Shown here piece after piece: positions 1,256 through 53,646 of a stretch of DNA of 64,000 bases. How positions within the stretch are numbered: the first letter of the stretch is position 1; each line of letters begins with the position of its first letter. This DNA comes from a virus. The stretch lies in IMG/VR virus record IMGVR_UViG_3300009285_003054, positions 62,001 to 126,000 of that record; one strand, 5' to 3'. The position numbers were made by a program, and so were the translations under genes. The notes beneath the pieces are model-generated. The model ran no database searches and was not told the origin of the DNA. It was given only the letters and a program-made list of their open reading frames with translations.

Positions 1256-3358
1256 ATGATAACCGAGAAGCAACAATCACCAGATCTTTCACCACCCCTG
1301 TTCCTCCGGAAACTCGCATTGACGGGTGTAGCCGCTTTAGATAGTATGAATCCCGAGGATCACCCGACTCTGCGATCGGCTGTGGCACTACACTGGGTAG
1401 ACACATATGACGCTGCGATGCAGCGGGTGGCGTTGGTGACACTAGATGGAAAACACGGGAAGATTACTCCCGAATATCAAAAGGAGCAGATCTCACTACA
1501 GCGCCGACTCCAAGCGCAAGTGACTGCATTGGCACATTGTGCAGTGGCGCTCCGTACATTCCGAGGATACAATGTCGGCGATCTCCCTGGGTACCTGGAT
1601 GCGTGTTCCGGGGAGGTCAACAACATACTGGATCGAATGGACCTCGCAGTGGGGCATACTTCCGCCAGCGCAGTAGAAATCCGAACTGCTGCGTCTGCTG
1701 GGGAAGGTACCCTCCGCGACGTGCTCACAGACATCCTAGAAAGTGCACACAAGCAACGTAGTAACTTTGCGAAGGTGTATACAATCCCTGCAGCGTTCCG
1801 GGGAGCATTGCGGCATGATGCTGGTGTCAAAGAGTTACAGGGGATTGTACCGCCAATCAGTGGGCCTCAGAAGCGTGCGGCCCAACGAGTATTCGACTCG
1901 GAGGGACTGGACGCATTTATGCCGACTATTCAGTCTAAGGATCTGACTGCGGTATATCTCCGTGCAATTGAGACATACCGAAACAACCTCAAGAATGGCA
2001 CCCTTAGGGGTGGTGGGTATGGTGAGACAGTATTCAAAGTCAAGTGTCGTGCGAAACATACTGTCGAGTATGTGTTATTGTCCCACGAAGATTCGTCAGT
2101 GCAGTGGACGTTGGCATTTAAGACCACCGCGTTCACTACCTGTGGGCTGATCTTCCGCTTTGTACTCAAATCCGATGGGATAGCTAGGGTGCTCAACTCT
2201 TGGGTACAGGGTGCTATGGCCGCAATGCAAGATGCAACGGAAGATCCCGAAGCTGAACTGAATTATCAAGTCGAGATGATTGGACATGCAATACGGGATG
2301 GTGAAGATCACATTCTCCGATCATGGGCGGGGGACAAGGTTCACAGTGAAGTATCTCTGGGAGAGACACCCGACACATGTGTGATCAAGTTGGAGTTGCT
2401 CCGAGCAACGGAATTGACGTTCGACACCGACCCGAATACCAAAAGAAAACAGTTCTTGAGGTTCCATGCTTACAATCGGACACTGATGGGTGGCAGACAC
2501 TCGGCAGAAGAAAAAGCCAAAGAGGCGATCCATAAGCTAGGTGGGGATGTTCAAGGTGTACAAGAGATTAAAGATCATTCCGCAGATCTGCGGACCAACG
2601 GCTTTCGTTTCTTTTTGACTACCCCGCTCGCAGTTGATCGAACAAAACTGGTAAAGTCGTTGGCTGACTTGGCATGGTCCCTGGGGAAGGGTAAACGCGA
2701 CGACTCCGATGATGCTGAGACGATCAAAACGTTCGAGGCGCAACACGGTGTAAGCACCAGCAAAGCGCAGTCCCTCAAGCGTACCCGTGCAGCAGAACAA
2801 GGAAAACTGCTCCAGAAAATTACCGAAATACTCAACTCATCTGAGATTATGCTCTCAGACAAAATGCGTAAGCAGCTAGAACGGTTGGAATGGGGGATGC
2901 AGAACAAAGCAGTGACCGATCTCAACTCGCTTATGATCACCATTCCCGCACGGCTAGAGATGATAGAAGAGCGGTTCACACGAACAAGAAAAGCATCCGT
3001 GGGAAGTAGGTCGGTTATGGATCTACAGAAACTCCATGGGTTCCTCCAACGTCAATGCCGCATACCTTATACACTCTCCACCCGTCTACAAGAGCACGGG
3101 GTTACCAAAGAAGCTATCCCTACATCAGCAAAATTGACGCAGATGTTGGTAGCACAAGCCCAGAATGACATCCACCGTACAGGGGTTGGGCCAGATCGAA
3201 TGATCCTTCGCATTCCCCATGGGGTAGTGGCAGAGTCTAAGGAATGCTTATCACAAGTAGTGACTGCTGGGATGACCCTGCGCTTCGGGAATGAGAGAGA
3301 CGTGCTCGTAGTGGATGCGCAATTGCACCCACTGACTATTCAACAAATGAGTCTGTAA
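1256..3358 (+). CDS. Large hypothetical protein, 700 aa
   Basis: An AGGAG site six bases upstream supports the ATG at 1256. The product is 700 residues, soluble and mixed alpha/beta. It has a helical N-terminal third, a central region around residues 250-420, and a helical, Lys/Arg-rich C-terminal part (about 480-600) likely to form coiled coil. There is no signal peptide or membrane segment, and I see no catalytic motif. The length and position next to other unknown late-type genes fit a structural or internal virion protein, but I do not recognise the family. It ends 20 bases before the mature tmRNA 5' end, so any tmRNA promoter must lie inside this gene or the tmRNA is processed from a longer transcript. 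Confidence 0.6.
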   Translation: MITEKQQSPDLSPPLFLRKLALTGVAALDSMNPEDHPTLRSAVALHWVDTYDAAMQRVALVTLDGKHGKITPEYQKEQISLQRRLQAQVTALAHCAVALRTFRGYNVGDLPGYLDACSGEVNNILDRMDLAVGHTSASAVEIRTAASAGEGTLRDVLTDILESAHKQRSNFAKVYTIPAAFRGALRHDAGVKELQGIVPPISGPQKRAAQRVFDSEGLDAFMPTIQSKDLTAVYLRAIETYRNNLKNGTLRGGGYGETVFKVKCRAKHTVEYVLLSHEDSSVQWTLAFKTTAFTTCGLIFRFVLKSDGIARVLNSWVQGAMAAMQDATEDPEAELNYQVEMIGHAIRDGEDHILRSWAGDKVHSEVSLGETPDTCVIKLELLRATELTFDTDPNTKRKQFLRFHAYNRTLMGGRHSAEEKAKEAIHKLGGDVQGVQEIKDHSADLRTNGFRFFLTTPLAVDRTKLVKSLADLAWSLGKGKRDDSDDAETIKTFEAQHGVSTSKAQSLKRTRAAEQGKLLQKITEILNSSEIMLSDKMRKQLERLEWGMQNKAVTDLNSLMITIPARLEMIEERFTRTRKASVGSRSVMDLQKLHGFLQRQCRIPYTLSTRLQEHGVTKEAIPTSAKLTQMLVAQAQNDIHRTGVGPDRMILRIPHGVVAESKECLSQVVTAGMTLRFGNERDVLVVDAQLHPLTIQQMSL

Positions 3359-3378: not shown

Positions 3379-3789
3379 GGGGGTGACTTGGTTTCGACGG
3401 GGAGACTCTAGGTACACACAGAAGTCGAGGTAAGGATCACCTTACGATCCAAAAAAATCAGGTGCGAACAACACCAAACACTACGCATCCGAACCCGCAA
3501 GGATGGTTGCGTAGTCCAGGGATCTTGAATCTCTGGTGCTCTGTAGAGACTAGCCGAATCTTCGGGGTATAATTTAGGCTACACGACCCCTATCAGGATT
3601 ACTAGTTCAATGGGTTGATAGTGGGAGTGTATTGGTGATTACCCACAGAACTCGAGGGGGAAAACACCCTTCCCTTATTCATGGGTGGTGCCCGCTTACC
3701 AGCACCAGTGGCAGTAAACGGTAAGCAAGTTGACTAACGTTGTGTGTACCGAATCTTTTCGGACGGGGGTTCGATTCCCCCCACCTCCA
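3379..3789 (+). ncRNA. ssrA: Transfer-messenger RNA (tmRNA), one-piece
   Basis: This is a complete one-piece tmRNA that would rescue stalled ribosomes by trans-translation. The 5' end GGGGGUG (3379-3385) pairs with CACCUCC (3782-3788) to form the alanyl-type acceptor stem, followed by the hallmark GACUUGGUUUCGACGGGGA segment. The 3' end carries the T-arm GGGGGUUCGAUUCCCCC. The 3' CCA is not encoded; discriminator A3789 is followed by CTT. Hairpin GUAAGG/CCUUAC (3430-3445) fits the PK1 position before the tag frame. The tag stop codon lies in a stem, CUACGCA/UGCGUAG (3481-3487 with 3508-3514), exactly as in helix 5 of bacterial tmRNAs. Further stems downstream match the pseudoknot region. No SmpB gene is visible in the window, so host SmpB would be needed. 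Confidence 0.95.
3464..3514 (+). other. tmRNA tag-peptide reading frame
   Basis: Reading from resume codon GCG at 3464, the tmRNA internal frame encodes the 16-residue tag ANNTKHYASEPARMVA and stops at UAG (3512-3514) inside the helix-5 stem. The Ala resume codon, the Asn-rich start and the stop codon in the stem all follow the usual layout. The tag is longer than typical bacterial tags of about 10 residues. It ends in Val-Ala rather than the Ala-Ala usually read by ClpXP. The other two frames do not give a short Ala-started tag. Confidence 0.8.
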
Positions 3790-3826
3790 CTTTTAGAAAC
3801 GATAAAAAATGAAAGGATGAAATGAC

Positions 3827-4015
3827 ATGATGATGACACTGGAAGAATGTGCAACAATTACAGATGTTTGTGAGCTATTGGAAGCTACTTACGAAGACGC
3901 TGCTAGCGAAGACGCCCGCGCTAAGCACCATAAGCGCTATCTTACTGTGATCGATGCTTATCAAGATAGCTTCGATCTTAGTAGAAAACTTGGGGTCAAG
4001 GACTACCTGTTTTGA
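3827..4015 (+). CDS. Small acidic hypothetical protein, 62 aa
   Basis: An AAAGGA site at 3812-3817 precedes the start. Three consecutive Met codons begin at 3827, and any of them could be used. The 62-residue product is acidic and helical (LEECATITDVCELLEATYED) with no recognised family. It lies 38 bases after the tmRNA 3' end with no terminator between, so the tmRNA may be cut from a transcript that continues into this gene. A strong terminator follows at 4145-4173. Confidence 0.5.
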   Translation: MMMTLEECATITDVCELLEATYEDAASEDARAKHHKRYLTVIDAYQDSFDLSRKLGVKDYLF

Positions 4016-4144
4016 TATAGAAGCAATAGTTGACCGCCTTCTTCAAGTGAATGCGACGTAAGTCCCGTGGGTATTATGTATGTGGCGACTGCGGCAAGAG
4101 TTGAAACTCGTTATAGAATGACGAGGAGTAGCAAGCAGCCGTGG
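4016..4144 (+). other. Untranslated stretch before terminator
   Basis: No convincing gene is seen here. A 17-codon frame at 4052-4105 contains CGDCGKS, like half a zinc knuckle, but has no clear ribosome binding site. Weak pairings (CTGC/GCAG enclosing CTCGT/ACGAG, about 4089-4136) hint at a folded 3' leader. With the terminator that follows, this stretch could be the 3' UTR of the 62-aa gene or a small RNA. Confidence 0.3.
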
Positions 4145-4173
4145 AAAAGGTAGGGAGAAATCCCTACCTTTTT
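4145..4173 (+). terminator. Rho-independent terminator
   Basis: The 11-bp stem AAAAGGTAGGG/CCCTACCTTTT (4145-4155 with 4162-4172) has a six-base loop and ends in a T-run. This is a classical intrinsic terminator on the plus strand, closing the unit that contains the tmRNA and the 62-aa gene. Confidence 0.9.
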
Positions 4174-4193
4174 CTTTTGGGTAATCTGAAAAT

Positions 4194-9141: not shown

Positions 9142-10179
9142 TTACCTTCGGCTTCGGGTGTTGACTCTTTTGGTAGGAAAGTACTTTCGGACAAACTTCA
9201 TGGTTTCTGGGCTGATCTCGATAGTAACCTCCTGATCATTCGGTGGGTGGAGGATCACCCCCGCATTGTGTAAGCTTGCCCGGAGTTGATCCCATATTCG
9301 ATAGTCTTCAGTGTTCTTGTCTTGACTGGATAGTAGTGGTATATCCCCAAACCCACTGTCATTTCCGCAGCCCCACACCAATAGGTCCCCGGCCATACCG
9401 CGCCGCGCATGGAACCGTACACTATACATCTTTTTCTTTGTCTTGTCGGTGCTGGTCTCTGGTACTGACATTGCAGGTAGCGACTGTAGGAACTGTATAA
9501 CCTCGGGCGGTACAGTTGTCCACACCAATGGCTGTTCTTCATTGGGTATATTTGTGTTGTATGGGAAGTATCGTGACCACTCTCGCGTGATGTCTTGTGG
9601 CCTTACCAATCGATAATTGGTGTCAGACAGGAGTTTCCAACTAATCTCGGATGCTGACTCGACAGCGTGATATTGATACTCAACGGTGGTGGGCTGTATC
9701 ATTGATCTATATACGTTACGAATAAGTTGTGTCGGCACTGCAACTGTTCCGCTGTGATAAGTCACACCATTGAATACCTTCTCACTAAGAGTAGCCGCCT
9801 GTACTAGGCCCATAAACTCCGGGATAACCATGTATCTGGGAATGATTAGCTTTCGGTGATTTGACCCTTTGTGGCGTTCGATTACAATCAGCGTATCTGG
9901 CCCTAGTGACACCCATACACGACTGTTGAATGCTTTTGGTAGTAGGTTGTCAGGATTGACTGGGTTTAGTTGCAACGGCGGCGGTTCAACTGGATGAAAT
10001 TGACCGTCCAGCCGATCTGGATACTGCATACCCAACTCGTTACATAATGCACGCAGTACTGCCCGGACGCGACAAATAAGAGGTGCTACGTCCATTGTAG
10101 TACTCGATACACAAAGTACCCCAGACTGCATCTGATCGAGTAATACCTGAAGCTGGGTTTTAGCTGTGTCTCTAGACAT
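9142..10179 (-). CDS. Hypothetical protein, 345 aa
   Basis: The ATG at 10179 overlaps the TAA of the giant helicase gene (TAATG), so translation is coupled. The 345-residue product has an N-terminal helical part, a Pro-rich stretch near 65-80 and a basic C-terminal tail ending NTRSRR. No motif or family is recognised. Coupling to the SNF2 helicase could mean a shared role, but adjacency is the only evidence. Confidence 0.5.
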   Translation of the reverse strand: MSRDTAKTQLQVLLDQMQSGVLCVSSTTMDVAPLICRVRAVLRALCNELGMQYPDRLDGQFHPVEPPPLQLNPVNPDNLLPKAFNSRVWVSLGPDTLIVIERHKGSNHRKLIIPRYMVIPEFMGLVQAATLSEKVFNGVTYHSGTVAVPTQLIRNVYRSMIQPTTVEYQYHAVESASEISWKLLSDTNYRLVRPQDITREWSRYFPYNTNIPNEEQPLVWTTVPPEVIQFLQSLPAMSVPETSTDKTKKKMYSVRFHARRGMAGDLLVWGCGNDSGFGDIPLLSSQDKNTEDYRIWDQLRASLHNAGVILHPPNDQEVTIEISPETMKFVRKYFPTKRVNTRSRR

Positions 10180-13100
10180 TATGCTACCTCATCTGCATCC
10201 AACGAGTTGTAAATCTCTCGAAGCTTATCTATCACATTAGCAAGGGGGTCTTCCGGATTAGTTACTTTTGGGAGCGGTGGTAGTTTTGGACCTTTTTTTC
10301 CAGAAGTTGCTACCGGTTCCACAGGTGGTGGGGTTGTTTCTGGTTGTTTAATTACCCCCTTTGCGCCCCTCGCGTTTGCTAAGTACGCATCAACATCGGC
10401 CTTTGGTACACCCCGTTCACCCAACTGCCACATTATCCCCGAGATGGCACTTACGCTCTCATGAGTTCCCGGTAGAGAGCGTGAGTATATGTCGATTTGT
10501 GTTCGGAGCAAAGCTGCATCCGCCTTGGGCATGTATATTGTTGTAGTGCCAATTTGAACTTTCTCGGTTTCTGGCTTACTATCAGGCTTTTCACTTGGTA
10601 TCGGTTTGTCGATGCCTCTCACTGGCGCTGCCGAAGGAGTTGGGTGGGTAACCGGAGTTTTCTGTGGGCGCATTTTGAGACTCAAGTCAAAAGCGGGAAC
10701 AAGTGAGAACGCTGTATCCAGCTCAGTTTTGAACTCGTCCCAATTCTGGACCTGATACCCACCGTCAGCCAACCTCTTGATAATCTTGCTAGCAGCATCC
10801 CGGTTCAAGCACTGCGCCCAGTAGGCCGAGTGCTGGACTTTGAATCTCGCACTTGGGCAAGCTTGGAGTACAGCATTGGATTCCATTTTCCTAATGGCTG
10901 CATATGTGTCCGAACCAATCTGGAGAACGTGGAGGATAGGCTTGACTTTCCCTGAACGTTTCTTGAGAATCCTCATCTCCCCTAATTGTTCTCTGGCCCG
11001 GGTAGCGTGAGATTTGAGTTTCATGTCTTTAAGGACACGCCGAATCTCACCATCCCAGGAATCGGGATTCTTGGGGACAATCCCGTGTGTCCCCAAGTCT
11101 TTGAGGATGCGCTTTGCGTCGGTGATGTTCGCGAGTTTGCGCATCACTAATGCGTTGAAGAAACGGAATCCAAACCGGCGGAGTTTGACTCGGTCATCTT
11201 CATCACTTCCAACAGCTAGATAAGTGATTCCGTTGAACGTAACCACATGCAAGTTCTCTATCACTGTATCTGGATAGGAAGTTTCATCTTCGGGGGAGGG
11301 GGTAGTTGGAGATTCCTCTGGACTTGGCTCCGGTGGCACAGCGTCTACTGGGGTACTTGCAGAGTCCATCATCAATTCCGACTGATGGGCTTGCTTCCAG
11401 TTCCAAGAGTAGTCATCGGGCATTTCCTCATCAAAGGAATGAGATATCTCCTGGAATCTCGTTAAGACACTCTCGGGAATAGCCAATTCAGGAAGGATGT
11501 CCTTGTTACTCCGGATGGTCTTGATCTCAAGCCCCTCGTCATCCACATTCCTAATATCCCCAAGCAGTGTTTCCTTTGAGTCCTGATCGAAATGGTATCG
11601 CAGCGTATACTCAAACTTAGGTCGTCCCTTAGCATCACCCAAGTTTCGCCGATATATAACATATGCCTCGTGGCGCCCACCGTCGTATTCGGAGTTGTAT
11701 CCACAATCATGCACTGCCACTAGCTCCCATGGCTCTTTGACTTTCTCAGTCCGTGGTGGATCAGTCGGCGTTTCTTGCTGTGGTGTAGGTTCTGGCTTTT
11801 GCTCTGGGGTAACCGGAGCAGACTTGGGTATCGGAGGTGCAGTTGTCACTGGCTTTGTGGCTTCTGGAGTAGTAGGTACGTTAGGAGTTCCCGCTGGAAC
11901 CAAAAAATTTGGATCTGAACCAGTAGGGATAGCCTGTTCCAACTCGCCATCCTTTCCATATACTCCTGAATGGTACGCCTTTCCGTCTTTGAACTTGGTC
12001 ATTTCAAAGTGTGAGTACCCGGTTTCGTGAACCAAGGCAATCCATTCCGCCAGTCGGCTTGGGGCTTTACGAGTGAAGTATGTGTCACCATCTGAATCCA
12101 CATACTTGAGACCCAATGACCTAGCGTCACCATCATTTTGGATGACCTCCATGAGCCAGTCGTCATCAACCACAATGTACGGTGGCGGACCATTCCTCTT
12201 GGCACTCTCATAGAACTTGCATCGGAATGGTGCCGTAATATCCTCTTGTGCGTACTCGGGGAGGTACCCCAAGATCTTCCGAGACCCGGGCACTGGGCTT
12301 CCAGCACGTTGTAGCATCTCGTGACCCAGTTCGACCGACAAGCGTTTACTGTCTTCCATGTCGTAATCATATTGAGCGTCATATCTCTCAATGTACGACC
12401 CGATCTGATTCAACTCAAGGATAGCTGCGGGGTTGACTTCTGGATGCCCCAGATCATTGATCGAAGCAGGGGAGAGTACTTCAGGGGTCATGATAATAGG
12501 ATCCAGCTCCACATCATCACTGAAATCCGAGTTGACCTTCCGCATATAGTGGTACTTGCACAATAATCTGCCATATTTGGCCACCTCGCCTGTACCCTCT
12601 GTTACGATTGCGTGAATGAATACCTTGGTTGCTTTGGAACCTGGGCGAAAAACCCGCCCGTACACCTGCTCTGTTGGCCCCGGGGACCAAAGAATGTCAG
12701 CCCTAATAACGCAATTAGCAAACTGTAGATTGTGCCCCTCTCGCAAGGACTTGTCCACAGCGCACAGCACCTTGACGCTAGGATCATGTCGGAATGCATC
12801 CAGGGATGCCTGCATCCCTGCCTCGTAGTACACGAGATTCGTGGCGCCAATGGTGGTACTGAACTTGGGAAGCCACTGTTTGAAGTGTTCAGCGCTCTCG
12901 CGGTGCTGAACAAAGAGGATGACCTTCCCGATACTTCCGTCGGACATCTTACTGTCTTCGGAACTGAAATGCTCATCGATTATCTCGGCAGCTTTCCTAA
13001 CCTTGGGACTTACGGCATCCTCTGGTTTCATCTTGGAAATGATTTTCCTGATTCTCAGAAACTCTGTGGGTATTTTACTCAATCTCGATACGGACTCCAT

Positions 13101-15677
13101 TTCTCCGGTTGTCTTGTTCCTTTCCCGTCCTTCCAACTGCCCACCAATGGTGGCAGTAGGACATGTAAGGTACTGATCGAGGACCAAGATCTTCAACAGC
13201 AACGCTGCTTCCCCTGACCCCTCTTCTGCTTCGTCCAGCTCGTCGGTAGCCCCCTGTGAGCTGTTCCATACGGCAGCTATCTTAGCGTCATAGAACGGAT
13301 TATCTGGGTTCTGTAGCTGGTCCAGGATCTCCTTCCAGATCGCGTTGTAGAACTTTTGGAGAGTGGGGGAGAGTCGAACAGCATGTCTACGTTCAATCCG
13401 CTCAGGCAGCATGTACATCCAGTACTGGCGTCGCATGGAGATCATGCCCAAATCACGGATAAGATCTCCTCGGATGTTTTTCAACGATTCAGTGGAATAG
13501 GCTATTACACTACCACCTTCAGTTTCGAGATCATATCGAGAGCAGAAGTCTTCCCATGTCCCGAAGAATGTGGGATCCAGAAATTTCAGTTGCCCAAAAA
13601 TATCCCCGGGAGTATTCGGGAACACTGTCCCTGAGCCAATACGCCGCACGGCAGCGCTGGACATTGCGCAACATGCGGAGTTGACATCACTGTCGGGATT
13701 CTTTATCCGATGGCTCTCGTCCAGAGTCACCATGTCTACTCCGCACTCTTCTACCAACCAGGTCCCCTTCCAAAACACTTTTTCAAACTTTGGTTGACCC
13801 GCTTTTTTTCCCCGAGTATAGACCTTTCCTGTGTCGATCAATATGGGTTTGTACGCCAACCATGAGTATGAAATCAAGATGATCGTATTTGGTGGGGCTG
13901 CGGTAATGATATCACGAACGGTATCTTTGACATCATCTTCCCCGTTGTCCCATGCTTTCCATGACTGCGAGGTAATTGCAATCACGTTGATGTCGCTGCC
14001 GAACTTATGGAGGATCTCATCCACTTGCTGAGCAATGGTGTTCCCGGGCATAATCACAGCGGGGCGTTTAGCTCCCCCAGCTTGCACCATCAACATGGCG
14101 TCTATGATACAGTTCAGCACCGTCTTCCCACCGCCCATATCCATATCAATAATGGCAACATCGGGGGAATTTGCAAGATGTGCAGCCGCAAGGGCTTGGT
14201 GCGGGAACAATTCGACGCCTTTCCCCAAATGAGGGATAGGTGGGCAATCTTCTGGTTTTAGACCAGAATGTTTTCTGATAAGATCATCCCGCTCATATTT
14301 GAACTGCTCGTACTTATGTCCCTCTGATACCGCTAGCCGAGCGGCTACGTAGAAGTCATCTGACCAGAAAGCGGAAGCAATGAATGCGTCCCCTCGATTC
14401 TCACGATGCGAGTCTCCACCCGAGAAGTGGTCATCTTGAGTTTCGGTGGCCACCTGAAGGCCATCTTTGAAATGGGGGATGCTCGCAGCTTCTCTAGCAG
14501 GGAGCCACGGTGGGATCTTCTTTGTTATATGGGTCTTTGCGTCAAATTCCTGTGTGAGTTGGGTAGGAAGAGTTCTCCCTGCCAATATATTGTCGCCGTT
14601 CTCTACACCATCTCCAGCATAATACCCATGATCAGCACAGTACTTAACTCGAGCACGATATTGATCGGCTATGCGCAGTAACTCTTGTCTCTCCACTACC
14701 CTGTTTTCCACCCATTTCTGAGCCTCTGGGCTTAACGGTTGTGTTCCAGTCATTTCTCCTTCAATTTGATTCAATTCCCGTACTCTATCAGTATCCCCGC
14801 TGTTCTGAGCATTACTTTTCATTGCCCAGACATCCCCTTCCCCGGGGATGCCGTAGACATCTTGAAGGAAGATGTCTCGATCAATGATGGGGATTTCTGG
14901 CTTTCTACGAAATCCCCACTTATCGGAAGTAGATACCTGAGTTTGGAAGCTCTGGTACACTTGGGTGGTATAGTCTGGATAGCCCACACCATTTCCGCCA
15001 GCTACTAGATCTGCAACGTCGTCGGGGATAGTGCATGCACGATCGAGCAGCTTGATCTTGTCTATCGTGCGTATTGGTTGGATTGATTCAAGAATTAGTT
15101 TACTACGCTTTCCATCGGTGTTGTAGTATTCAATCAACCGATCGGCAAGGCTGATCCGGAAGATTCGATTGGCAAATGTGTGAATTGGGTTCTTTGGTGG
15201 TTCATACCTCTGCTCCGTAGGTTTCCCCATCTTCTCGAAAAGCTTCTGTCTTTCCGCATCAATGATCTTTCTCCACTTCGATTTAACCGCATCTCTCTCA
15301 GCCCAGCCCAAATTACCTTGTTGTATTTCTCTTTCCTGGTCCTTCCGTCTGTCGCGCTCGAGTGTAGACAATGCTTCGTTATAATCCTGCCACAACCTCA
15401 ACTTGGTCAAATAATCCGGTGTATTGTACGCACCTGGATATGTGTAATCTCCTCGATCACGCATAGCAATCCATTTTTCGTACTGATGATCAGCCTCGTC
15501 AGCTTCATGGGTTATGTCGAATTCTCGTTCGATATAGATGTATCGTGGATTCTTCCCGTGTGCAAACTTGAAGTACCCAGGTAGGCTACGGGCCAGCACA
15601 CTGGCTAGGAGTACGCTCACAGAAGGATTGCGCAGTTCTATTGTCGGGTAAGTGTTCTTCAATACCGATGAAGCCAT
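10179..15677 (-). CDS. Giant SNF2-family (SF2) helicase/ATPase, 1832 aa
   Basis: A GGAG site six bases upstream supports ATG 15677 (MASSVLKNT). The longer frame with a TTG start has no such site. The ATPase core starts near residue 490. Walker A is DMGGGKT (about 513-519), the DESH box of motif II lies near 660, and GSGTVFPNTPGD corresponds to motif III. The C-terminal RecA lobe carries VILFVQHRESAEHF and EQVYGRVFRPGS (motif VI with Arg finger). About 490 N-terminal and 800 C-terminal residues flank this core. The tail has two Pro/Thr-rich linkers and two similar about 65-residue modules (GITYLAVG... and DTYAAIR..., each ending in a Trp-containing segment). Large SNF2 proteins in phages can be virion-packaged antirestriction or DNA-remodelling factors, e.g. 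DarB of P1. No methyltransferase domain is seen here. Function is inferred. Confidence 0.8.
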   Translation of the reverse strand: MASSVLKNTYPTIELRNPSVSVLLASVLARSLPGYFKFAHGKNPRYIYIEREFDITHEADEADHQYEKWIAMRDRGDYTYPGAYNTPDYLTKLRLWQDYNEALSTLERDRRKDQEREIQQGNLGWAERDAVKSKWRKIIDAERQKLFEKMGKPTEQRYEPPKNPIHTFANRIFRISLADRLIEYYNTDGKRSKLILESIQPIRTIDKIKLLDRACTIPDDVADLVAGGNGVGYPDYTTQVYQSFQTQVSTSDKWGFRRKPEIPIIDRDIFLQDVYGIPGEGDVWAMKSNAQNSGDTDRVRELNQIEGEMTGTQPLSPEAQKWVENRVVERQELLRIADQYRARVKYCADHGYYAGDGVENGDNILAGRTLPTQLTQEFDAKTHITKKIPPWLPAREAASIPHFKDGLQVATETQDDHFSGGDSHRENRGDAFIASAFWSDDFYVAARLAVSEGHKYEQFKYERDDLIRKHSGLKPEDCPPIPHLGKGVELFPHQALAAAHLANSPDVAIIDMDMGGGKTVLNCIIDAMLMVQAGGAKRPAVIMPGNTIAQQVDEILHKFGSDINVIAITSQSWKAWDNGEDDVKDTVRDIITAAPPNTIILISYSWLAYKPILIDTGKVYTRGKKAGQPKFEKVFWKGTWLVEECGVDMVTLDESHRIKNPDSDVNSACCAMSSAAVRRIGSGTVFPNTPGDIFGQLKFLDPTFFGTWEDFCSRYDLETEGGSVIAYSTESLKNIRGDLIRDLGMISMRRQYWMYMLPERIERRHAVRLSPTLQKFYNAIWKEILDQLQNPDNPFYDAKIAAVWNSSQGATDELDEAEEGSGEAALLLKILVLDQYLTCPTATIGGQLEGRERNKTTGEMESVSRLSKIPTEFLRIRKIISKMKPEDAVSPKVRKAAEIIDEHFSSEDSKMSDGSIGKVILFVQHRESAEHFKQWLPKFSTTIGATNLVYYEAGMQASLDAFRHDPSVKVLCAVDKSLREGHNLQFANCVIRADILWSPGPTEQVYGRVFRPGSKATKVFIHAIVTEGTGEVAKYGRLLCKYHYMRKVNSDFSDDVELDPIIMTPEVLSPASINDLGHPEVNPAAILELNQIGSYIERYDAQYDYDMEDSKRLSVELGHEMLQRAGSPVPGSRKILGYLPEYAQEDITAPFRCKFYESAKRNGPPPYIVVDDDWLMEVIQNDGDARSLGLKYVDSDGDTYFTRKAPSRLAEWIALVHETGYSHFEMTKFKDGKAYHSGVYGKDGELEQAIPTGSDPNFLVPAGTPNVPTTPEATKPVTTAPPIPKSAPVTPEQKPEPTPQQETPTDPPRTEKVKEPWELVAVHDCGYNSEYDGGRHEAYVIYRRNLGDAKGRPKFEYTLRYHFDQDSKETLLGDIRNVDDEGLEIKTIRSNKDILPELAIPESVLTRFQEISHSFDEEMPDDYSWNWKQAHQSELMMDSASTPVDAVPPEPSPEESPTTPSPEDETSYPDTVIENLHVVTFNGITYLAVGSDEDDRVKLRRFGFRFFNALVMRKLANITDAKRILKDLGTHGIVPKNPDSWDGEIRRVLKDMKLKSHATRAREQLGEMRILKKRSGKVKPILHVLQIGSDTYAAIRKMESNAVLQACPSARFKVQHSAYWAQCLNRDAASKIIKRLADGGYQVQNWDEFKTELDTAFSLVPAFDLSLKMRPQKTPVTHPTPSAAPVRGIDKPIPSEKPDSKPETEKVQIGTTTIYMPKADAALLRTQIDIYSRSLPGTHESVSAISGIMWQLGERGVPKADVDAYLANARGAKGVIKQPETTPPPVEPVATSGKKGPKLPPLPKVTNPEDPLANVIDKLREIYNSLDADEVA

Positions 15678-15712
15678 GATTTGCTCCGAGTTGAAATTAG
15701 CTGAGTCAGCTA

Positions 15713-15720
15713 CTTTAGAG
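15713..15720 (-). promoter_or_regulatory. CTCTAAAG motif upstream of SNF2 gene
   Basis: The octamer CTCTAAAG lies 36 bases before the preferred start of the SNF2 gene, with TAATTT 13 bases downstream of it. It is one of five exact copies found next to gene starts in this window. A promoter role is inferred. Confidence 0.35.
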
Positions 15721-16050
15721 GTTTCCTTTGTCGGGTTCAATAGCGCATGTGGGGTGTGTGTCTACGGTATCCTCATCTCCTCCCAGGATATCATCCCCCA
15801 TTCCGAATGCATCTTTCGCACGTTCGGAATAGTATTCAGGACGAGATACTATATCATTCCAGAAAGGTGGCATAGTTAGATTGAATTCGCTACCTTTCTG
15901 GATCAATAGTGTAACTACAGTTTGTCTGTCAGTTTCACTCAAGCGGAGCAATTCTGGTAGGGTCCAACGAACCATCTCAGAAATGACATGGTTTCGATCA
16001 GTAAGAATCAGTGCGGACGAGATGTCTTTTATATGTGACTTGGGTTTCAT
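15715..16050 (-). CDS. Small hypothetical protein, 111 aa
   Basis: An AGGAG site six bases ahead of ATG 16050 supports this gene. The 111-residue product is helical in its first two thirds (WTLPELLRLSETDRQTVVTLL) and ends in a very acidic, Gly/Asp-rich tail (MGDDILGGDEDTVD). This is the shape of a small assembly chaperone or clamp, but no family is recognised. It ends 37 bases before the SNF2 start and lies 14 bases after the 254-residue structural gene. Confidence 0.5.
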   Translation of the reverse strand: MKPKSHIKDISSALILTDRNHVISEMVRWTLPELLRLSETDRQTVVTLLIQKGSEFNLTMPPFWNDIVSRPEYYSERAKDAFGMGDDILGGDEDTVDTHPTCAIEPDKGNL

Positions 16051-48839: not shown

Positions 48840-50786
48840 TTATGTCAACCCTAGTAGGTCTTTGCGGAACCCTACGTCACTCCCTAACAGGTTGGCAACG
48901 TACTGTAAGGAGTTTCGATCCCCTTGGACCCGCACCAATCTTCGAGTTTTGGGCTCCATGGAAGTTTCCGCCAATTCGGCGGGTTGCATCTCCCCTAACC
49001 CCTTTATCCGAGTCACGGTAAGCTTACCGTGATATCCGCGTTCCCCCGCAAGTGTATTGACCGACTCCAGGGTATCCCCGAAGACCCGCCCCCGTGGCCA
49101 CTTTGCAGAAAATAGGGGTGGGAGACTAATCCACAAGCGACCGTCCTCCACAAAAGGTAGCATATATCGGAGAAAAAATCCCAAGAGTAGGGTAGAGATA
49201 TGACCTCCATCTTGGTCGGCATCAGCCATTATGATGGCCTTGCCTACCCTTGATTTGGATGGATCACATGTCTCTCCATGGTTTTCCAGATCATGCCCTG
49301 CCCCAATGGACCGAACTATGGCCCCATACTCCTCGTTGTCGAAGATCTTGGCTATTCGAGTAAGCCCTTCCTGAATCGGGTTCGGTGGTTTACCCTTCAG
49401 GGGGAGGATCTCTTGAAAGAGCACCCCACGAGCGTTGCGTGCTCGTGCTCTCACTGCATTGCCCCCTGCGGATGCGCCTTCTACAATGAACAGCTCTCGT
49501 TCTTCTTTGGTGCATCGTAGAGCGGTGGTGAGCTTACTGGGGAGCCCAGTCCTTCCCGTTTTCACATCTGCATAGGCTGCTTGAGTAGCCACACTTTTTG
49601 CGGTCTTGTATGCTTTCCTTGCTTCCGCCATGCGTACTGCTCTATCCACCAGAGCAGCAACCACAGTCCCATTGGCAGCAGCCCATTTCCCGAGGTGGGT
49701 ACTGAAGATCGTATCAGCCATTCCTGCGCATTCTGGGTTGTTGAGCCTGTTCTTTGCCTGCCCTTCAAAATGAGGCTCGCGCAGCATCACATGTGTGGCT
49801 ACCCGCAATCCTTCCCGGAAATCATCCCCAGTGACTCCGTCAGATTTGCAGTAGTCCGCCATGATTCGAGTAATCGCCCGCTTGGCTCCGGTTATGTGGG
49901 TGCCACCATCTTTCACGGGGATCATGTTGACCCACGAAAACCACTGCTCCTCGTCCCCATCTGTCCACCAGATGGCTACGTCCAATGCCTCTGAGTCGGG
50001 TCTGGGGGTGTCCATTAACTGAAACTTGCGGTCCACGAACTTTCCATGTACTCGGAAGGAAATGGGCGCGTCCAGCACCGGCTTTTCCTTCCTTCCTAAT
50101 CTTGTCCGGAGATACCCAGCCAAGCCTTCTTTGGATGTCAAGGTTGTGACACTTCCGTTGATATCCAGGGTTACCTTAAGCCCTGGACAAAGATATGAAA
50201 CCGAAGTAAGCCGCTCGCGCAAGATATCCGGGTCAAATGTAGTCTTCCCGAAGATGCTCCTGTCAGGGTGGAAAGTGACAGTAGTCCCGGAGTCTTTGGA
50301 CTTCCCAACCTTTCGAGTGGGATCCACCACCTTCCCCTTCCCAAACCCCACTTGGTAGAGCAGTCTACCTCTAACAGTGGTTACCACCATCCGATCGGAG
50401 AGTGCGCATGTGGCTTTCGCCCCAACACCATGAAGCCCCCCCGATATGGCGTAAGCCTGCTTCCCGAACTTACCCCCCATCATAGTTCGAGTGAAGATCC
50501 CCTCAATAGTGGGTTTCCCTGTTTGTGGATGCTTCTCCACTGGGACACCCCGTCCGTCATCAGACACTGTAACCTCTTGCTTCGTAGTGTTCAGTGTCAC
50601 CCCCAACGTTTTGCAGTGTCCTGCGAGGTATTCATCTACGGCGTTGTCGATTAGTTCCCACACCAGGTGGTGGAGTCCGGACTTGCCCGTATCGGGGACA
50701 TACATCCCTGGACGGGACCGGATGTGTGTCACCCCATCCATTGCTTGGATAGATGACGCATCATATGTAGACACTGTCTTTGCCAC
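48840..50786 (-). CDS. gyrB: DNA gyrase/topoisomerase IV subunit B
   Basis: AGGAG six bases before GTG 50786 is the start signal. The 648-residue protein has the GHKL ATPase domain with catalytic Glu44 in WELIDNAVDE, DGRGVPVE (77-84) and GGLHGVGAKATC (116-127). It also has the TOPRIM domain, with Glu436 in IVEGASAGGNA and the D-x-D pair in ADADQDGGH (521-529). At 648 residues it lacks the insertion of E. coli GyrB, as in Gram-positive GyrB or ParE. It pairs with the GyrA-like gene two genes downstream. Confidence 0.95.
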   Translation of the reverse strand: MAKTVSTYDASSIQAMDGVTHIRSRPGMYVPDTGKSGLHHLVWELIDNAVDEYLAGHCKTLGVTLNTTKQEVTVSDDGRGVPVEKHPQTGKPTIEGIFTRTMMGGKFGKQAYAISGGLHGVGAKATCALSDRMVVTTVRGRLLYQVGFGKGKVVDPTRKVGKSKDSGTTVTFHPDRSIFGKTTFDPDILRERLTSVSYLCPGLKVTLDINGSVTTLTSKEGLAGYLRTRLGRKEKPVLDAPISFRVHGKFVDRKFQLMDTPRPDSEALDVAIWWTDGDEEQWFSWVNMIPVKDGGTHITGAKRAITRIMADYCKSDGVTGDDFREGLRVATHVMLREPHFEGQAKNRLNNPECAGMADTIFSTHLGKWAAANGTVVAALVDRAVRMAEARKAYKTAKSVATQAAYADVKTGRTGLPSKLTTALRCTKEERELFIVEGASAGGNAVRARARNARGVLFQEILPLKGKPPNPIQEGLTRIAKIFDNEEYGAIVRSIGAGHDLENHGETCDPSKSRVGKAIIMADADQDGGHISTLLLGFFLRYMLPFVEDGRLWISLPPLFSAKWPRGRVFGDTLESVNTLAGERGYHGKLTVTRIKGLGEMQPAELAETSMEPKTRRLVRVQGDRNSLQYVANLLGSDVGFRKDLLGLT

Positions 50787-50829
50787 GCATAGCTCCTATG
50801 TAATGTCCGCTGATATTAGCTTGTGCGCT

Positions 50830-50837
50830 CTTTAGAG
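50830..50837 (-). promoter_or_regulatory. CTCTAAAG motif upstream of gyrB
   Basis: CTCTAAAG lies 44 bases before the gyrB start, followed after 11 bases by TAATAT. It is also part of a palindromic CTCTAAAGAG. It is one of the two best-formed copies of the recurrent motif. Confidence 0.4.
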
Positions 50838-50868
50838 GAACCAGATAAGGTGCAAGCAACGGCTTTGG

Positions 50869-52086
50869 TTAGTACACCACCGTTATACAAAAGTCAAACT
50901 GCTCTGAAGCGGAGATACCCTGTGGTGGAATAGTAATTCGCATTTGGTGGTGGTTACTTACATTAGGTTCGGACGTGCACCAATGCACCAATGCAGTATG
51001 CAGTATCCCTACTATTTCACCAGGATGGAACGTTCGTTTAAACAGTGTTTTGTAGGAGGTAGTCGTAGGGTATACAGTATAACACACAAGAGGATTTGCA
51101 GCTGACAGTAACTCAAGCATAGTGAATCGAAAACTCACACCTTTTGGGTACGCCCCTCTAATAACAGAATCCTTGTGATCGAGAAAAATCTCCTTTATTA
51201 TTCGAGCTATGTCATCTAAACTACAGGCGGATTCTGATTCCCCAGACTCTAGCTGGGTATGTACAGGCTGCTTCACACTTGGTATTGGTAGTCGGGTAGT
51301 GTCTCTACCAATTTCTACAGAAATCTCATGCTTGTTATCGATATCTGAAAAGGTCGTGGTTCTGCTAGGCAAAAGCACATCGGTGTGCAAATCACATATA
51401 CATGGAGGAAATACTAATTTGCCAATGTGTCCGTTCAGTATTTTCTTCAAATCAGTTTGCGGGTCAAGATACTGTGCTAGCTTACCTCCGATTACACTTC
51501 CCCAGAGATCCCTAGACAGATGTACTACCACTTCTGATGGGTTATCCTGCGTCCCGGATATATACTGGATTAGATTTGCACATTCAATAAAAACTTGGCT
51601 AGTCAATCGATTTCTCTTGATTACACGCCCTGACTCGTGTGTGCGACATGTTCCCGGAGGATCCTCTCTTTGAACTGACTCCACACCATCTACAGTAGTA
51701 TGTGCTATATTATGTGCGGATCCTAAGCTATCCGCTAATACAGATAACACAGCTTGCATCTGCATTGCTTTGGTTGAGTAATTTGGATTCTCTACAATAT
51801 TTGGATTCTCTACAATATAGGGATCCAGGATTGACACGACTGCAATCCCCATATAGACCCATTTCAACCGCACATCCTGGGGAAGTTGTTTCCACTCGGG
51901 ACAATCCTCACCGAGGAAATTCTTCCCCCGATTGACTCCCGCTGAATTATAGATGGCATATAGCATTTGTCCGACATCGCTGTCATCGGACCCTCCGGAA
52001 TCGTATCCGGTTGCGTAACAGCATTTTGGAAGGTGCTGCGCATTCTGTGTAGTTTGTCCGACTAGTGATTCATTCAATTTGGCCAT
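50869..52086 (-). CDS. Hypothetical protein, 405 aa
   Basis: AAGGAAA seven bases before ATG 52086 (MAKLNESLVG) is preferred to the ATG nine codons upstream. The 405-residue product is of mixed composition, with scattered Cys (CCYATGYDSGGSDDSD near 20-35; PPCICDLH near 235) but no regular metal motif. It contains an in-frame duplication IVENPNIVENPN near residue 95. No family is recognised. It starts 42 bases after the metalloprotease gene. Confidence 0.5.
   Translation of the reverse strand: MAKLNESLVGQTTQNAQHLPKCCYATGYDSGGSDDSDVGQMLYAIYNSAGVNRGKNFLGEDCPEWKQLPQDVRLKWVYMGIAVVSILDPYIVENPNIVENPNYSTKAMQMQAVLSVLADSLGSAHNIAHTTVDGVESVQREDPPGTCRTHESGRVIKRNRLTSQVFIECANLIQYISGTQDNPSEVVVHLSRDLWGSVIGGKLAQYLDPQTDLKKILNGHIGKLVFPPCICDLHTDVLLPSRTTTFSDIDNKHEISVEIGRDTTRLPIPSVKQPVHTQLESGESESACSLDDIARIIKEIFLDHKDSVIRGAYPKGVSFRFTMLELLSAANPLVCYTVYPTTTSYKTLFKRTFHPGEIVGILHTALVHWCTSEPNVSNHHQMRITIPPQGISASEQFDFCITVVY
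51781..51816. repeat. 18-bp in-frame tandem duplication
   Basis: ATTTGGATTCTCTACAAT is repeated exactly twice, encoding IVENPN twice in the 405-residue protein. It is in frame, so the protein is intact. It belongs to the set of short tandem duplications in this window. Confidence 0.9.
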
Positions 52087-52128
52087 GACAGATTTCCTTT
52101 TCGACTCCCCCATTTCAGTCCATCGGAT

Positions 52129-52731
52129 TCAACGCAAGTAACCTAGCTGGTGTAATTCTTTACGTCGATTATTTGGTATGGTTCTCGGACCAAAGAAGCA
52201 TGCGGCAAAAATCTCAGCAGCATACTCGTCTACATTGACCAACGACCGTCGAGACGGGATGAACGAGTTGTACCACTTTTGACCATGAGCCTGCCATACG
52301 GTTATAAGAGATACAGTAGCCACACGTTCCATGGCCTGCCTGTACAAGTTTTCGAAGACACTGAATTTACTTGATGTCAAGACGTGAGACGCAACAATAT
52401 GCCCAATTTCGTGTACCAAGACACGCTCGTCAACCGCACCCATTGCCACAAACGGACGATCATGACGAGAAAACGCGGACCATTCTCCGCGATGAGCATT
52501 GTCGTCGGTTCGTGTGAAACCTATCTGAAAAGTAATCTTCGGAAGCTTTAGCCGCATTCTTGATGTGATTGCCTGTAGTGTTTGATCAATCAGGTTCACT
52601 GCCAACCAAAACTCCGCCGGAGTAAAATCACCCAATCCACTGGCCGGCATGAATGCTCTAAAGGTAGATTTATCGATTTGGCAATCCTGTGTGACGTTGG
52701 TATAGGATGTTCCAATTGTAGCACTACGCAT
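52129..52731 (-). CDS. Zinc metalloprotease-like protein (HExxH), 200 aa
   Basis: GGAG seven bases before ATG 52731 (MRSATIGTSY) sets the start. The 200-residue protein has HEIGH at 107-111 (VLVHEIGHIVASH). A downstream acidic segment VDEYAAEIF (168-176) can supply the third zinc ligand. It resembles small ImmA/IrrE- or M78-like minigluzincins rather than large secreted proteases. Such phage proteins may cleave regulators. It is distinct from the 41015-41869 peptidase. Confidence 0.7.
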   Translation of the reverse strand: MRSATIGTSYTNVTQDCQIDKSTFRAFMPASGLGDFTPAEFWLAVNLIDQTLQAITSRMRLKLPKITFQIGFTRTDDNAHRGEWSAFSRHDRPFVAMGAVDERVLVHEIGHIVASHVLTSSKFSVFENLYRQAMERVATVSLITVWQAHGQKWYNSFIPSRRSLVNVDEYAAEIFAACFFGPRTIPNNRRKELHQLGYLR

Positions 52732-52776
52732 GTACATACTCCATCTCAAATGAATGACTGAATGAGCATTGCCGCG

Positions 52777-53646
52777 TTAGCCTGGTAGGGAGTATATGCC
52801 CCGCATCCCAGCCAACCACCCTTCCGATTTTCGCCCGTCGGACCACAAGATCCCAATATATACATCCCCTTGTCTCTCTGGAGTTTTCTCTTCAGGATCC
52901 TGATCGGAATCTGGGTTTTCCAACAATGGTCCGGTATATGTCACCACACCATGTTGACCTCGATCATCCACCACAGGTGCATTCGAGTGTAGTCTTTCAC
53001 CCAAATCCGCTATAGGGACCCACCCACCCTCGGATACATCATCCATAAGCGCATGTGTGGGACACATTTGATGTTGGTATCTTCCTGAACGATTGTTAGT
53101 ACTCCCGTAGAATGTCTGATCCCCACGGCTCTCGAAGTAGGTAATCTGAACGAGTCGTTGGCCTGGGTATATTATGGTAGGCTCTACTACTACAATCTCG
53201 AGAGTCCACCTCCCACAGAACCCGTTGTCACCCCTACCTGCAGTTACGTGGGTAAAAATCCCGAGTCGGCCAGTAGAAGATCTGCCGTCGAGGTAGGGTA
53301 TAAGTCCCCACGATTCGGTGTACTCTCGTGTAACCCCGAGATAAAGTGTCGCAGGTCGAAGGATCCAGCAATCTTCTCTTGTTACTGGGTGTAGTATTAG
53401 CGGAACCACTTTTGTTACAGGTGGCCTTTTGGAGTCGATCACACCAGCTAATCTACCCCCGAATGCATCAGACGTTAATGCAATCTTTCTATTACCCTCA
53501 TTGACGATATCCCCTGAGTACATCCGCAGCTCATCTCCAAGGTGAAGGTCCACGGAATTGGAGTTGACACAGGCTGGATCGAACGGGTTGATTACAATCG
53601 TTCCTTTGGTAATCTGGTTTTTGATTTCCGCACCGGTGAGAATCAT
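52777..53646 (-). CDS. dcd: dCTP deaminase with C-terminal extension
   Basis: The 289-residue product has the dCTP deaminase/dUTPase fold signatures. These are SVDLHLGDEL (31-40), GRSSTGRLGI (121-130, containing the conserved Arg and Ser residues), and HVTAGRGDNGFCGRWTLE (133-150) with the catalytic Glu150. It converts dCTP to dUTP (or dUMP) for the thymidylate pool. The known enzymes end near residue 190; about 100 extra residues follow here, acidic and ending in a Trp-rich segment. It is coupled to the GNAT gene upstream (ATGA overlap). Confidence 0.88.
   Translation of the reverse strand: MILTGAEIKNQITKGTIVINPFDPACVNSNSVDLHLGDELRMYSGDIVNEGNRKIALTSDAFGGRLAGVIDSKRPPVTKVVPLILHPVTREDCWILRPATLYLGVTREYTESWGLIPYLDGRSSTGRLGIFTHVTAGRGDNGFCGRWTLEIVVVEPTIIYPGQRLVQITYFESRGDQTFYGSTNNRSGRYQHQMCPTHALMDDVSEGGWVPIADLGERLHSNAPVVDDRGQHGVVTYTGPLLENPDSDQDPEEKTPERQGDVYIGILWSDGRKSEGWLAGMRGIYSLPG

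Follow-up and report, generated by a model that had tools for sequence, protein, structure and literature searches.

Complete phage-carried genes for tmRNA, the RNA that releases stalled ribosomes and marks their incomplete protein for degradation, are an already known kind. Lists of phage tmRNAs go back to at least 2014 (PMC4131195), such genes were found in 402 of the 18,146 phage genomes of a 2021 collection (PMC9004378), and the 2025 tmRNA database contains 79 phage sequences (PMC11915505). Across tmRNAs, the commonest tag length is 10 aa and the shortest 2 aa, and the CCA end is not always encoded in the gene (PMC11915505). A well described phage case is Methylophage Melnitz, whose complete phage-carried ssrA was proposed to maintain the hijacked translation, recycling of host proteins having been proposed as well (PMC9004378). 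Full-length RNAs with a tag frame are also encoded in the large genomes of phages Bxz1, Cali and Wildcat, Bacillus phage G, Streptomyces phages Daubenski, Anedea and Riptide, and Mycobacterium phage Phabba.

The gene reported here is an ordinary-looking member of this group. It lies in a window of 64,000 nucleotides that corresponds to positions 62001-126000 of a 176,803-base IMG/VR virus record (G000). It shares with the named phages a full-length RNA, a tag frame and the large phage genome; it differs from them in the tag, and DNA-level alignment with their tmRNAs is limited to 30-38 bases at the T-arm/acceptor end. When the tmRNA DNA was searched against 50,697 phage records, matches were likewise confined to the T-arm and acceptor. 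The Melnitz gene is two-piece and accompanied by a glutamine riboswitch, whereas ours is one-piece, with no second Rfam match in the window. Phage DS6A carries an inhibitor form reduced to the tRNA-like domain and devoid of a tag reading frame, unlike the 412-nt gene with a tag frame found here.

The terminase and portal proteins of the record are approximately 28-34% identical to those of Pseudomonas phages Voja-6 and PaBG, phage NCTB, Rhizobium phage RHph_I42, Xanthomonas PhiXhv, Dickeya JA11 and Vibrio GR11A. The source is a large uncultured phage, distantly related to the large myophages of PaBG/Voja-6/JA11 type. Its replication set comprises a type II topoisomerase, a DNA polymerase, a DnaB-like helicase, a ligase, RecA, an SMC-like protein and clamp-loader proteins. 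Because the record carries terminase, portal and replication genes, and phage genes with orthologs flank the tmRNA left and right, the gene lies inside a phage genome and is not host contamination. No tRNA, SmpB, phage integrase or ClpP was found in the record. The first ~225 and last ~75 bases of this “linear” record belong to a common in-frame 12-base tandem repeat (LIPD repeats in the protein), so the record may represent an almost complete circular genome that was opened within the repeat.

ARAGORN, applied to the whole window, called one tmRNA, at 3379-3790 on the plus strand, with the tag ANNTKHYASEPARMVA, and no tRNA. The Rfam model RF00023 matched 3379-3792 over model positions 1-374, with 102.9 bits (E 4.2e-39) for a curated cut-off of 47 bits, and was the sole Rfam match in the window. 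Both the ARAGORN call and the end-to-end match place the gene in the one-piece, non-permuted form and outside the two-piece class. Its fold had a z-score of -3.7 relative to shuffled sequence, none of the shuffles being as good. The original prediction, made from the letters of 3379-3789, was of a full one-piece tmRNA encoded by a phage; the covariance model recovers that segment at full length, and this result, the ARAGORN call and the phage-gene context bear the claim out. Position 3789 is indeed the discriminator base, but the gene extends to 3790 once the first C of CCA is counted, which gives the length of 412 nt.

The landmarks of a standard tmRNA could be followed along the gene. The acceptor 5′ strand GGGGGUG (3379-3385) pairs with CACCUCC (3782-3788) at 7 of 7 positions, a G3-U70 wobble included. 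A G3-U70 pair is the mark of alanine tRNAs. With this stem intact, a pseudogene with a disrupted acceptor stem, a case raised at the outset, is ruled out. The 3′ part, 3764-3790 on the plus strand, comprises the T-arm (GGGGG-UUCGAUU-CCCCC), the acceptor 3′ strand, the discriminator A and the first C; stem and T-arm were found as predicted, both by reading and in the RF00023 alignment. After the discriminator the genome goes on with C-T-T, so that the encoded part of CCA is limited to its first C; the gene end, CCUCC-A-C followed by UU, agrees with the earlier statement that CCA is not encoded. By inspection of their 3′ ends, about 11 of the 26 other one-piece ARAGORN calls gathered also lack an encoded CCA. 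The D-loop segment reads GGUUUCGACGGG, the helix 2 core is 9 bp long (GGUACACAC/GUGUGUACC), and the conserved GACUAA is present ahead of the helix 2 return strand.

The tag frame, 16 codons plus UAG, occupies 3464-3514 on the plus strand (gene positions 86-136). Its resume codon GCG stands in the conserved context AAAAAAAUCAGGUGCGAAC, aligned by RF00023 to UGCaAAC, and the stop UAG sits in the 3′ strand of helix 5 (CUACGCA/UGCGUAG). ARAGORN, the translation and the RF00023 alignment thus agree with the helix-5 stop and GCG-started frame first noticed, and in its factual description of the tmRNA the original prediction was correct. Standard tmRNAs typically contain four pseudoknots, and four possible ones were written for this single sequence, three with a simple script and one by eye. 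The script gave pseudoknot 1 at 3427-3450 (GAGGU/ACCUU and GGAUC/GAUCC), a probable pseudoknot 3 at 3656-3687 (GGGGGAA/UUCCCUU and CACCC/GGGUG) and pseudoknot 4 at 3686-3726 (UGGUGC/GCACCA and GCUUACC/GGUAAGC), all on the plus strand; as written, pseudoknots 3 and 4 have two bases in common, which makes their limits approximate. The candidate pseudoknot 2 (UAGCC/GGCUA and GGGGU/ACCCC) was read by eye.

Compared with the bacterial standard tmRNA (ssrA), the likeness covers the whole model, from acceptor, G3-U70 pair and T-arm to helices 2 and 5 and resume context, with candidate pseudoknots. The differences are the 16-aa tag, against a commonest length of 10 (PMC11915505), its Met-Val-Ala end, and the unencoded CCA, which some other tmRNAs share. 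The original prediction called this tag atypical. Length and Val-Ala end stand, but the adjective is weakly justified: among 84 distinct tags besides that of the window, collected by pattern scans of viral contigs and from terminase relatives, 20 have at least 16 aa, 16 have a C-terminus other than Ala-Ala and 11 have both, with a median length of 13, in a sample that mixes one-piece and two-piece forms, may include host or prophage contigs and contains a few questionable ARAGORN calls. Restricting the count to one-piece tags (n = 26) left 5 with at least 16 aa and 3 not ending in Ala-Ala. The window tag is longish, with a rarer ending, yet within the range of phage tags.

On its left, the tmRNA follows a 700-aa gene with no assigned function (1256-3358, plus strand), whose stop lies 20 bp before it. 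On its right come a 62-aa ORF (3827-4015, plus strand) and a strong intrinsic-terminator-like hairpin with 14 pairs and a U-rich tail (4143-4174, plus strand), which closes the plus-strand operon. No sigma-70-like promoter was found directly upstream of the tmRNA, and its transcription is thus assumed from the operon layout. For the 700-aa protein, searching phage records gave no match, and scanning viral contigs directly yielded no relative that could be confirmed; an ortholog, 35% identical, was detected only in the fetched record of the closest relative (G006).

Relatives of the phage were gathered from viral contigs by terminase alignment (n = 50). The best terminase match, 59% identical, is G006/L159. 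The left neighbours of the tmRNA, the 700-aa gene included, have orthologs in conserved order in G006, and also in order in G017; the right-hand genes (G000 67115-79797) have orthologs in both as well. At the syntenic site of G006 the tmRNA is absent: a convergent gene starts ~140 bases past the 700-aa ortholog, and no tmRNA was found anywhere in this 52-kb record. Neither G017/L170 (terminase 53% identical, 250.8 kb) nor the seven named phage relatives tested gave a tmRNA above cut-off. A tmRNA was present in 6 of the 50 terminase relatives, one-piece in L239 and L240, two-piece in L241, L243, L244 and L245. These six genes belong, as ours, to one distant phage clade in which tmRNA is sporadic; they differ from it in their tags, and some are permuted, so that they are apparently separate acquisitions. 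Because forms and tags differ, and because the syntenic site of the closest relative is empty and so few of the 50 carry the gene, these comparisons suggest repeated, separate gains of tmRNA among terminase relatives. The L239 tmRNA is 46% identical to that of the window. In a comparison confined to tmRNAs gathered from viral contigs, the nearest one-piece form is ~53% identical over the aligned part, and in a tree of one-piece phage tmRNAs, read for its topology only, the window gene falls close to L101 and L071, with long branches.

Partial RF00023 matches of ~76 nt in the relatives were mostly tRNAs, those of L241, L243, L244 and L245 being parts of the two-piece tmRNAs. Two of these four have tags ending in QAANA. 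The L240 gene (1501-1940, minus strand) scored 97.6 bits with RF00023 and received no ARAGORN call; its T-loop, GTCGGAG, and its D-region are unusual. Its tag, read manually, is ANTVIEKVKGFFTADNYGFDQLAAA, which has ADNYGF in common with the L239 tag, ADNYGFEARLAA.

We consider it quite probable that a large phage has here acquired an intact ssrA and carries it as accessory cargo that works with host machinery and ordinary ClpXP-type proteases. The RNA would probably be transcribed at the end of the plus-strand operon, then trimmed and completed with CCA by host enzymes. Host AlaRS would charge it with alanine, the G3-U70 pair being present; the charged tmRNA, bound to SmpB and EF-Tu of the host, would then enter ribosomes that have stalled on broken mRNA in the course of infection. 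Alanine followed by ANNTKHYASEPARMVA would be added and the ribosome would be released at UAG, leaving the tagged products to ordinary ClpXP-type proteases of the host. Neither SmpB nor ClpP having been found in the record, it is probably the SmpB and proteases of the host that the RNA relies on, and it could function only where the host has retained SmpB. Eleven other tmRNA-bearing viral records also yielded no recognisable SmpB, and therefore reliance on host SmpB looks common. The phage may benefit through sustained translation or through recycling of host proteins.

Other readings were weighed against that of an ordinary working ssrA. The original prediction held that this tmRNA may give tagged proteins a different protease fate. 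In a more specific form of this reading, the 16 residues and the Met-Val-Ala end would divert the products from ClpXP, so that they are stabilised or handed to another protease or adaptor. The rarity of the Val-Ala end, seen in one other of the 84 tags (AANDNAPFEGYALVA of L058), agrees with such a specialised tag, as does the search for ANNTKHYA in representative bacterial genomes, where none of three matches lay within a tmRNA; these matches therefore gave no host clue. Long and non-Ala-Ala tags are nevertheless frequent in viral tmRNAs, and a phage-encoded ClpP was not found. Moreover, of the common engineered variants of the E. coli tag, AANDENYALVA shows the fastest degradation, ahead of AAV and ASV in E. 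coli and Salmonella, and its loss persists in part without ClpXP (PMC11003136). MVA is chemically near LVA, and, provided that host proteases are enterobacteria-like, the ending of the window tag speaks for a normal degron; by this analogy a Val-Ala C-terminus is consistent with a strong one. A diverted fate is thus unsupported, and we regard it as improbable. A variant in which the phage tmRNA competes with that of the host, its phage-specific tag being handled differently, for instance spared from the host protease or overloading it, is a shade less probable still.

The original prediction also offered compensation for loss of the host's own tmRNA; in a wider version, the phage RNA would stand in for a host tmRNA that was lost, or inactivated by phage or host during infection. 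This would provide a clear selective reason to carry a full gene, but just 6 of 2031 complete bacterial genomes lack ssrA (PMC4131195), which makes host loss unlikely a priori, and the RNA would be of no use to a host devoid of trans-translation altogether, as no SmpB was found in the phage record. Replacement is therefore very unlikely, and neither it nor a special fate has positive support. At the other extreme, the gene could be a passive leftover without function in the phage, a host ssrA picked up through imprecise excision or because it served as an attachment site. ssrA is often an integration site of mobile elements (PMC11915505), and the empty syntenic site of the closest relative would fit such a capture. 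However, no phage integrase was found in the record, the gene is full-length with its pairings intact, it is flanked by a gene and a terminator within a phage operon, and its nearest viral-contig counterpart is only distantly similar. A passive relic seems to us just as unlikely as replacement, and the reading as accessory cargo used with host machinery is preferred.

The gene extends the set of phages with complete tmRNA by a divergent branch. One-piece and two-piece tmRNAs are scattered, inside a single distant terminase clade, among relatives that mostly lack tmRNA, a pattern that fits repeated gain as cargo. Should phage tags turn out to be matched, or mismatched, to the proteases of the host, genes of this kind would offer a direct handle on why phages carry tmRNA.

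Two further features of the record were observed. The portal gene, outside the window (G000 50673-53225; L004 10673-13225), contains an intein-like insertion between two portal halves; residues ~385-470 match Pfam Intein_splicing with E 1.8e-6, although the match stays under the curated cut-off. Within the window, 10179-15740 on the minus strand encodes an 1853-aa helicase-family protein, with a PHROG DNA helicase match at residues 484-1053 and partial matches in G006 and G017.
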